Part shown: positions 6,359-7,470 of the stretch, one piece after another
How positions within the stretch are numbered: position 1 is the stretch's first letter
How the letters are laid out: each line of letters opens with the position of its first letter
Assembly (NCBI GenBank): GCA_030445875.1
Contig: JASUSX010000030.1
Location: forward strand, 1-12,541
DNA length: 12,541 bases
Direction of reading: 5' to 3'
From: Clostridia bacterium
GTDB lineage: Bacteria; Bacillota; DSM-521; Neomoorellales; Neomoorellaceae
Translations under genes and position numbers: made by a program
The notes under the pieces: generated by a model
The model's database searches: none
What the model saw: only the letters and a program-made list of their open reading frames with translations
Told to the model about the DNA's origin: nothing

Positions 6359-6526
6359 GTGGAGGTTAAATGTAGCCTCTGTGGGCGTAGCGAGGAAATT
6401 ACCAAAGTACATAAAGATTACCGCCGCCTGGCACGGGATAAAAAGGCTGTCTATACCTGCGAGACCTGCCGCGCCCGGCTGCGCTACCAGGCTTTACAGA
6501 CCCAGAAAGAGGAAAAACCATTATAA
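6359..6526 (+). CDS. Small zinc-ribbon protein, DUF2197 (YlaI)-like
   Basis: A 55-residue basic protein with two cysteine pairs, CSLC near residue 5 and CETC near residue 36, spaced like a zinc ribbon. Between them lies a conserved-looking basic helix (TKVHKDYRRLARDKKAVY), and the C terminus is RLRYQALQTQK. This pattern resembles DUF2197/YlaI proteins of Firmicutes; function is unknown, with metal binding inferred from the cysteines. GTG 6359 is chosen because AGGTGA (6348-6353) is 5 bases upstream. ATG 6299 and GTG 6350 are in-frame alternatives that would add residues not expected for the family. It is divergent from gpr, separated by 120 bases that carry no other gene, and is followed by the selenoprotein promoter; no clear terminator lies between. 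Confidence 0.68.
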   Translation: MEVKCSLCGRSEEITKVHKDYRRLARDKKAVYTCETCRARLRYQALQTQKEEKPL

Positions 6527-6534
6527 ATAACTTA

Positions 6535-6563
6535 TTGACAGCGTAAAATAGATATAGTATAAT
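6535..6563 (+). promoter_or_regulatory. Consensus sigma-A promoter for the selenoprotein-trx-ferredoxin operon
   Basis: TTGACA (6535-6540), a 17-base spacer and TATAAT (6558-6563): both boxes match consensus exactly with optimal spacing. It lies 24 bases before the ATG at 6588, with AGGAGG at 6573-6578. It implies strong vegetative expression. Confidence 0.92.
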
Positions 6564-6587
6564 CCCATGCAGAGGAGGGGATAAAAT

Positions 6588-6869
6588 ATGGAAATCCGTA
6601 TCAGCCCTAAAGCGGAACAGTATATAAAAGAAAAAGCGCAGGCTATTACCGTTAAACTGGAACTCTGCGGTGGGTGAGCCGGTATGTCCATTCGCCCTGC
6701 CGTGTATGCAGGTGCCCCGGCGGATTTGAAAAACTTTCTAACGGAACAGTGGAACGGGTTGAAGGTTTACCTGCAGAAGGGCATCAAAGCCTCGCGAGGT
6801 CTAGATATAGACCTGGTGGGTTTTGGCCCCTTTAAGCAACTCGTTGTTGACGGAGTCCAAAATTACTAG
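6588..6869 (+). CDS. Small selenoprotein with C-G-G-Sec motif (HesB-like / CC-Se motif type), in-frame UGA at codon 30
   Basis: Read through the TGA at 6675-6677, one continuous frame encodes 93 residues from ATG 6588 to TAG 6869, with selenocysteine at position 30. The N-terminal half reads MEIRISPKAEQYIKEKAQ then ITVKLELCGG-Sec-AGMSIRPAV, a pattern recalled from small HesB/IscA-like selenoproteins and the 'CC/Se motif' family of Moorella relatives. Cys27 and Sec30 make a CxxU redox pair. Codon-like sequence continues without break after the TGA (WNGLKVYLQKGI, LVGFGPFKQLVVDGV). Support: exact sigma-A promoter, AGGAGG ribosome binding site, and a two-part hairpin just after the UGA fitting a bacterial SECIS. 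It is 14 bases upstream of thioredoxin. A standard gene call would give a 29-codon stub or an ORF starting at 6684. The reaction is unknown. A nonsense-mutated pseudogene is the main alternative but fits the hairpin poorly. Confidence 0.85.
6678..6721 (+). promoter_or_regulatory. Candidate bacterial SECIS element
   Basis: Directly after the UGA: outer stem GCCGG (6678-6682) with CCGGC (6717-6721). The upper stem GCCCTGC (6694-6700) pairs with GCAGG-T-GC (6708-6715), seven pairs with one bulged U at 6713. The apical loop is CGTGTAT (6701-6707). The loop G is 25 bases after the UGA, within the range described for bacterial SECIS elements. It would bind SelB and direct Sec insertion. Confidence 0.7.
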
Positions 6870-6883
6870 GGGAGGTACCTGGT

Positions 6884-7210
6884 ATGAGCAAGCCTGTCAA
6901 TGTAAACAACAATGATTTTGAGGCGGAAGTACTGTCAGCGCCGTTTCCGGTAGTGGTCGATTTTTGGGCCGTGTGGTGCGGTCCCTGCCGGATGATGGCT
7001 CCTGTCCTGGAACAGCTGGCCGCCGATTATGACGGTAACGTCAAATTTGCCAAGGTTAACGTCGATGAAAACCAGGAACTGGCCGCCCGCTACGGGATTA
7101 TGAGCATCCCCACCCTGGTCGTTTTTAAGGATGGCCAGGAGGTAGGACGGGTTATCGGCTATATGCCGAAAGAGAAATTGAAGGAACAACTGGAAGCAGC
7201 CATACAATAA
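6884..7210 (+). CDS. trxA: Thioredoxin
   Basis: A 108-residue classical thioredoxin that reduces protein disulfides using electrons from thioredoxin reductase. The redox motif WCGPC has cysteines at 32 and 35, the same positions as E. coli thioredoxin. Asp26, the FWAVWCGPCRMMAPVLE helix, KVNVDEN and the cis-proline segment SIPTLVVFKDGQ are all present, and the final helix is EKLKEQLEAAI. ATG 6884 follows GGGGAGGT by about 7 bases. It lies 14 bases after the selenoprotein gene and 33 before a ferredoxin-like gene in the same direction, so it is probably the second gene of a small redox operon. Its active site uses cysteine, not selenocysteine. Cytosolic; length and motifs are normal. Confidence 0.97.
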   Translation: MSKPVNVNNNDFEAEVLSAPFPVVVDFWAVWCGPCRMMAPVLEQLAADYDGNVKFAKVNVDENQELAARYGIMSIPTLVVFKDGQEVGRVIGYMPKEKLKEQLEAAIQ

Positions 7211-7243: not shown

Positions 7244-7432
7244 ATGGCCCGCCAGGCTTTTATTAATGCCAGTCTGTGTGACGGTCAGGCCGATTGCCGG
7301 GCCCGGGCCGCCTGCCCTACCGGGTCCTTCCTGCGGGAAGAGGAAGATGAACCCTGGTTTATTGGTCCCACCTGCCTTGGCTGTGGCCGTTGCCTGCTGG
7401 CTTGCGACAGGAAGGCCATTAATTTAATCTGA
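7244..7432 (+). CDS. Small ferredoxin-like 4Fe-4S protein
   Basis: A 62-residue protein with the C44-x2-C47-x2-C50-x3-C54 motif of a 4Fe-4S ferredoxin (CLGCGRCLLAC). The first half has three cysteines with unusual spacing, C12-x5-C18-x5-C24-Pro, instead of the canonical CxxCxxCxxxCP. Cluster II could use C44, C47, C50 and C24. The first cluster would lack one cysteine and may be absent or of 3Fe-4S type. The remaining sequence is acidic (REEEDEPWF) and ends AINLI like ferredoxins. ATG 7244 follows GAGGGGGAG by about 5 bases. It is third in the selenoprotein-thioredoxin operon and ends at a terminator. The electron partner is unknown. Confidence 0.85.
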   Translation: MARQAFINASLCDGQADCRARAACPTGSFLREEEDEPWFIGPTCLGCGRCLLACDRKAINLI

Positions 7433-7438
7433 GACAGG

Positions 7439-7470
7439 GTCACCGGAAATAACCGGTGGCTTTTTATTTT
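7439..7470 (+). terminator. Intrinsic terminator of the selenoprotein-trx-ferredoxin operon
   Basis: Stem GTCACCGG (7439-7446) with CCGGTGGC (7453-7460), one G-U pair, loop AAATAA, followed by TTTTTATTTTTT. It begins 7 bases after the ferredoxin-like stop codon. Confidence 0.88.

Follow-up and report, generated by a model that had tools for sequence, protein, structure and literature searches.

A CC/Se motif family selenoprotein gene of a Clostridia bacterium with a predicted IscA-like fold and a thioredoxin gene downstream

The selenoprotein family NF041239 is curated as "CC/Se motif family (seleno)protein". Table 1 of a 2026 review places it under 'Predicted with high confidence', with a CxxU motif and one selenocysteine (Sec), and describes it as a hypothetical protein whose prediction comes from Moorella thermoacetica (PMC13188914). 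It was already listed as a hypothetical protein in 2022 (PMC9312934), and a 2006 list of six M. thermoacetica selenoproteins does not contain it (PMC1794560); Moorella is unmentioned in the main text of refs 61 and 62 of the review (PMC2398784, PMC5029168). In the literature searched, which here and below excludes supplements, the review was the sole paper found for NF041239, and no fold or function was found for the CC/Se family. The DNA analyzed here (the window) is a stretch of 12,541 nucleotides, positions 1 to 12,541 of contig JASUSX010000030.1 from a Clostridia bacterium of the Neomoorellaceae (assembly GCA_030445875.1). Its gene at 6588–6869, on the forward strand like the associated elements between 6535 and 7463 described below, almost certainly encodes a selenoprotein whose residue 30 is Sec. 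The original prediction regarded this gene as overlooked, a claim that does not hold, as NF041239 covers it and Table 1 of PMC13188914 lists the family from M. thermoacetica. Because the family is thus covered, the gene is known in kind and nothing out of the ordinary within its family, sharing with the printed prediction a full-length match, CxxU, a single Sec and the genus, with no essential difference; the nearest named loci for the protein are those of M. mulderi (86% identity) and M. stamsii (85%). GrdA, HdrA and other CxxU selenoproteins have the same spacing (PMC13188914, Table 1) but only this motif in common with the window protein, no relation in sequence or fold being shown. What is added here is an IscA/SufA-like predicted fold and the frequent presence of thioredoxin genes as neighbours.

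The gene runs from ATG 6588 through 29 sense codons, a TGA at 6675–6677 and 63 further sense codons to TAG at 6867–6869, giving a protein of 93 residues. Written with C in place of U, the read-through protein matches NF041239 at 99.6 bits (cut-off 40), residues 1–90 lying on profile positions 1–91; the DNA matches at 92.5 bits with one TGA inside the match, and the UGA codon sits in the Sec column of the family. In comparison with five congeners, the ratio of nonsynonymous to synonymous changes (pN/pS) is 0.14–0.20 over codons 1–29 and 0.10–0.17 over codons 31–93, and purifying selection acts on both sides of the UGA. Because of these low ratios and the end-to-end match to a curated family, the read-through frame is not a product of chance. 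NF041239 has matches in 18 of the 22 genomes of the class, 17 of the 20 matches containing one in-frame TGA and three containing none, and in a sample of the phylum 90 of 398 genomes match, 86 of them over the cut-off. Among 66 distinct UGA-bearing members, which come from the fetched loci and not from all matches in the phylum sample, 64 have the UGA in a single alignment column, in which 11 of 13 members without UGA have Cys and two have Ala, in an alignment made with C replacing U, which favours placing Cys there. Among the 11 Cys copies, L103 (G390:C13) showed a TAA in frame when the genomes were searched and is possibly a decayed copy. Second copies in two Moorella genomes of the same genus (L027 and L028, G009 and G013) have Ala at the Sec position, and the hairpin of the Sec insertion sequence (SECIS) is missing in them as judged by inspection. 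At another locus (L087, G058:C21), three family copies lie within about 4 kb, and in each of them a Cys codon comes directly after the UGA.

In the bacterial SECIS model of PMC13188914, an apical loop of 3–9 nucleotides is carried on a stem of 4–16 base pairs (Fig. 2 legend), with G in loop positions 1–2, a distance of 16–37 nucleotides from the UGA and a minimum free energy of −7.5 or below. The stem-loop CCUGC-CGUGUAU-GCAGG at 6696–6712 satisfies this model as an upper stem-loop, with five conserved pairs, G at position 2 of the 7-nucleotide loop CGUGUAU and the apical loop 23 nucleotides past the UGA; the folding energy of 6693–6715 is −8.9 kcal/mol, and 6 of 200 shuffles fold as well. Since an Rfam scan of the window at the gathering score gave 0 hits, the SECIS was tested by alignment. 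In 32 distinct UGA sequences, all 160 cells of the hairpin are paired and two of the pairs have changed on both sides, one in 5 cells and the other in 1 cell, while pairing drops to 21–41% in slid controls. The hairpin was equalled by none of 500 shuffles in percentage paired and in covariation score, and by 14 of 500 in the count of pairs changed on both sides. Third codon positions are frozen inside it (Pro CCT in 31 of 32, Val GTG in 32 of 32), whereas the equally invariant Pro at +14, outside the frozen stretch, uses four codons (14/7/7/4). By a criterion fixed after the hairpins had already been seen, 65 of the 66 distinct UGA-bearing members have a qualifying hairpin, compared with a mean of 31.5 and a maximum of 45 upon synonymous recoding with pooled codons and a mean of 24.9 and a maximum of 38 with uniform codons (500 runs each); the sole miss (L118) has a hairpin beyond the set limits.

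The source genome has a tRNA-Sec (69.5 bits, cut-off 47) with anticodon tca according to ARAGORN. In the genome comparison (E ≤ 1e-10), 78 genomes have a UGA-bearing match and 74 of these have tRNA-Sec, versus 182 of 320 others (Fisher 4e-12), and three of the four exceptions are genomes 84, 92 and 85% complete. SelB is over the cut-off in all 21 other genomes of the class searched. At two loci of one family (L116 and L121, G041 and G302), the CC/Se gene lies about 8.2–8.4 kb from a tRNA-Sec gene. Several observations are less favourable to reading the UGA as Sec. The source assembly, which is 58.8% complete and has 163 contigs totalling 1,565,705 bases, gives no match for selA and only sub-cut-off matches for selB and selD, so that the set of Sec genes whose confirmation the original prediction asked for was recovered with regard to tRNA-Sec but not to these three. 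The fourth exception in the genome comparison (G192) is 99% complete, with just a 51-codon match; the writing of C for U bears on the Cys count as stated above; the observed number of further pair types in the hairpin is reached by 446 of 500 shuffles, a measure that is not favourable; and a longer fold of 56 nucleotides favours a structure different from the SECIS hairpin. The missing selB is plausibly an assembly loss, because a congener (G010) has tRNA-Sec about 4.8 kb downstream of its SelB gene and the tRNA-Sec contig of the source genome starts 225 bases before the tRNA. The decoding of the UGA at codon 30 as Sec, as originally proposed, is supported by the family match, selection on both sides, Cys exchange, the SECIS and the tRNA-Sec association.

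The structural model of the window protein has IscA and SufA as its top structural matches and shows an IscA-type fold, so that an IscA/SufA-like fold is predicted with high confidence; that the gene product is both a selenoprotein and IscA-like is, taken jointly, likely. In the model, Sec30 is placed on a tight turn between two strands, at the position of the core cysteine of IscA. The window protein thus resembles IscA, SufA and ErpA (PF01521) in its predicted fold and in having Cys/Sec on the strand turn, but it has no C-terminal CxC (CGCG in five canonical IscA/SufA homologues), Cys27 being its only Cys, and it does not match PF01521 at E 1. Of 25 relatives, 11 match PF01521 with E values no higher than 1, the best being 8.8e-5. 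The HesB-like selenoprotein (TIGR01911/NF038090) likewise has a profile of the IscA type in which Sec takes the place of the core cysteine, although it is a separate curated family with a UxGP motif that is not in the window protein. NF038090 matches 9 of the 25 relatives (best 3.6e-6); the window protein scores 13.2 bits against its cut-off of 85, and none of the 22 genomes of the class has a match at E 0.001. A sequence search of the PDB with profile A2, made from 25 of 42 family sequences, gave only seven weak matches (E 0.14 to 1.2), and nothing matched with one relative as the query. In the literature searched, one paper, on Methanococcus, was found for selenoproteins together with HesB and IscA. 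Both the IscA/HesB relationship of the gene and its SECIS hairpin go beyond the original prediction.

Cys27 lies three residues before the UGA, and the proposed CxxU pair is accordingly present in the window protein but does not define the family. In the interval from −3 to +4 around Sec, the 66 UGA members have their Cys at −3 in 24 cases, at +1 in 17, at +3 in nine, at −1 in two and at +4 in one, while 13 have none, and CxxU was rejected as the defining pair. Because the partner Cys moves or is missing, the constant feature is Sec or Cys at one position, CxxU being local to some clades. The motif is given as CxxU with one Sec in PMC13188914, whereas across the family at large this partner shifts or is absent, and some relatives are probable tandem Sec-Sec proteins.

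The thioredoxin gene (6884–7210; TIGR01068, 135.7 bits, cut-off 96.8) starts at ATG 6884, 14 bases past TAG 6869 as originally noted, and is probably in the same transcription unit. Thioredoxin is encoded directly downstream in 15 of the 17 UGA-bearing loci of the class, the window included, and one of the other two ends at a contig end. In the 53 wider loci, which are those fetched and of which some are cut by contig ends, thioredoxin-system genes occur on the same strand in 11, as thioredoxin (Trx), Trx with CcdA/DsbD, or a fusion of Trx with thioredoxin reductase (TrxR), spanning six families by tool labels (f1, f35, f39, f44, f50 and f93); the thioredoxin gene of the f39 and f93 loci is 0.9–1.0 kb distant, and in L065 it lies past an opposite-strand gene. 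A weak match to a flavin adenine dinucleotide (FAD) oxidoreductase was seen in three others, and no thioredoxin-system match in 39 of the 53. The Trx, TrxR and DsbD queries came partly from the same loci, where these genes were first found by Pfam, and identical queries were used on a control of 400 kb from 20 genomes also carrying the family, in which thioredoxin was not found and FAD matched weakly once. With the control counted as 66 intervals of 6 kb, the enrichment has a Fisher value of 7e-5, which overstates independence because loci inside one family are related. On the basis of gene neighbourhood, the protein is somewhat more probably than otherwise a selenol redox protein served by thioredoxin; of the selenium redox protein working with thioredoxin in the original prediction, it is the thioredoxin link that is borne out, at the level of neighbouring genes. 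The ribosome would decode the UGA at 6675–6677 as Sec using the hairpin at 6696–6712, SelB and Sec-tRNA. The selenol of Sec30 would act as a redox nucleophile that is oxidized by a substrate, and the neighbouring thioredoxin would re-reduce it; in Moorella the resting form may be a Cys27–Sec30 selenenylsulphide.

An alternative contests this redox step and not the selenoprotein identity. As in IscA, Sec30 might serve not as a redox catalyst but as a ligand that carries metal, Fe-S or sulphur/selenium, the cargo being bound by Sec by itself or together with a Cys close by, with thioredoxin merely keeping it reduced. This agrees with a fold that puts Sec at the core cysteine, with a 4Fe-4S ferredoxin-like gene that ends the unit and lies downstream at 14 of the 17 UGA-bearing class loci, and with the vicinal CC, UC and CU motifs of relatives, which would suit a soft-metal ligand. 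On the other hand, the window protein lacks the C-terminal CxC of IscA, 13 of the 66 UGA members are without a Cys in the vicinity of Sec, and the 20 neighbours scanned, among more that were listed, include several thiol-disulphide genes and zero Fe-S assembly genes; a carrier role is therefore possible but unlikely. The sequence CGGUAG...RPA of the window protein presumably resembles the motif region of PF06491, and PF06491 (best E 0.002) and TIGR04191 (best 0.0013) each match 6 of the 25 members at E up to 1, the window protein itself giving E 0.27 with PF06491. A bacilliredoxin-type disulphide isomerase is nevertheless very improbable and was rejected, as the window protein reaches 11.8 bits against the PF06491 cut-off of 25, PF01521 and NF038090 match more members and match them better, and the model has IscA/SufA as its top structural matches. 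The weakest alternative, that the UGA is a true stop in a pseudogene or ahead of a product made from ATG 6684 alone, draws on the 61-codon frame opening at this ATG and on the shortfall of selA, selB and selD in the source assembly, but it is hardly credible in view of the low pN/pS over codons 1–29, the UGA retained in 17 of 20 class matches, the SECIS covariation and SelB in the 21 other genomes.

The genomic setting was also as first described. A sigma-A type promoter, TTGACA-17-TATAAT (6535–6563, 12 of 12 consensus matches), and a ribosome-binding site AGGAGG (6573–6578) precede the gene, and the start, the 29 and 63 codons, the TAG and Cys27 were all confirmed. The ferredoxin-like gene (7244–7432, 62 residues; PF00037, 21.1 bits at a cut-off of 21.1) is followed by an intrinsic-terminator-like hairpin at 7436–7463 with an 11-pair stem and a T tail, although two such sites occur in the scanned stretch against a shuffle mean of 1.7. 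Because this hairpin closes the stretch that the promoter opens, the ferredoxin-like gene may be the last of a three-gene unit. Ahead of the unit, 6360–6526 encodes a small co-directional CxxC/CxxC protein, present in 11 of the 17 UGA-bearing class loci including the window, for which a Pfam search gave no match. A GMGCLxC motif is shared by two small proteins, one at 1873–2166 of the window and one at 463–693 of L001 beside tRNA-Sec, which look like DUF1858, in the Cys form here. DUF1858 is a CxxU selenoprotein family in the table of PMC13188914.

Distant paralogues of the family (loci L078–L084 and L150–L159) have an in-frame TGATGA. A search with seven of these tandem-UGA relatives found 11 places with two TGA codons in 10 of the 398 genomes, and TGATGA was directly seen in all ten (G166, G263, G286, G350, G098, G370, G240, G133, G388 and G065), each of which has tRNA-Sec. 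A TAA falls within the matched stretch in two of the 11 places, being the gene end in G286, the other being in G065. The seven relatives score 29–49 bits against NF041239, two of them over the cut-off. They have GUU at the CC, UC or CU site of the family, and in a downstream hairpin whose structure was drawn from the same seven sequences all 49 cells are paired and four pairs are changed on both sides. This sequence pattern suggests that the tandem-UGA paralogues are vicinal Sec-Sec selenoproteins. The selenoprotein table of PMC13188914 has no UU entry, and the literature searches for Sec-Sec led to algal PDI_e, in which the motif is already in print (PMC7539508). In a joint reading whose chances seem evenly balanced, CC/Se proteins would be thioredoxin-served selenol enzymes of IscA fold with a fixed Sec/Cys and a resolving Cys that migrates or is lost, including a Sec-Sec branch in which CC is replaced via tandem UGA-UGA with one downstream SECIS hairpin. 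The predicted fold and the thioredoxin genes that recur nearby make the function of the family testable. The Sec-Sec branch, if true, would be a bacterial Sec-Sec motif, and the tandem UGA-UGA, if translated, would mean two consecutive Sec insertions under one SECIS in bacteria.
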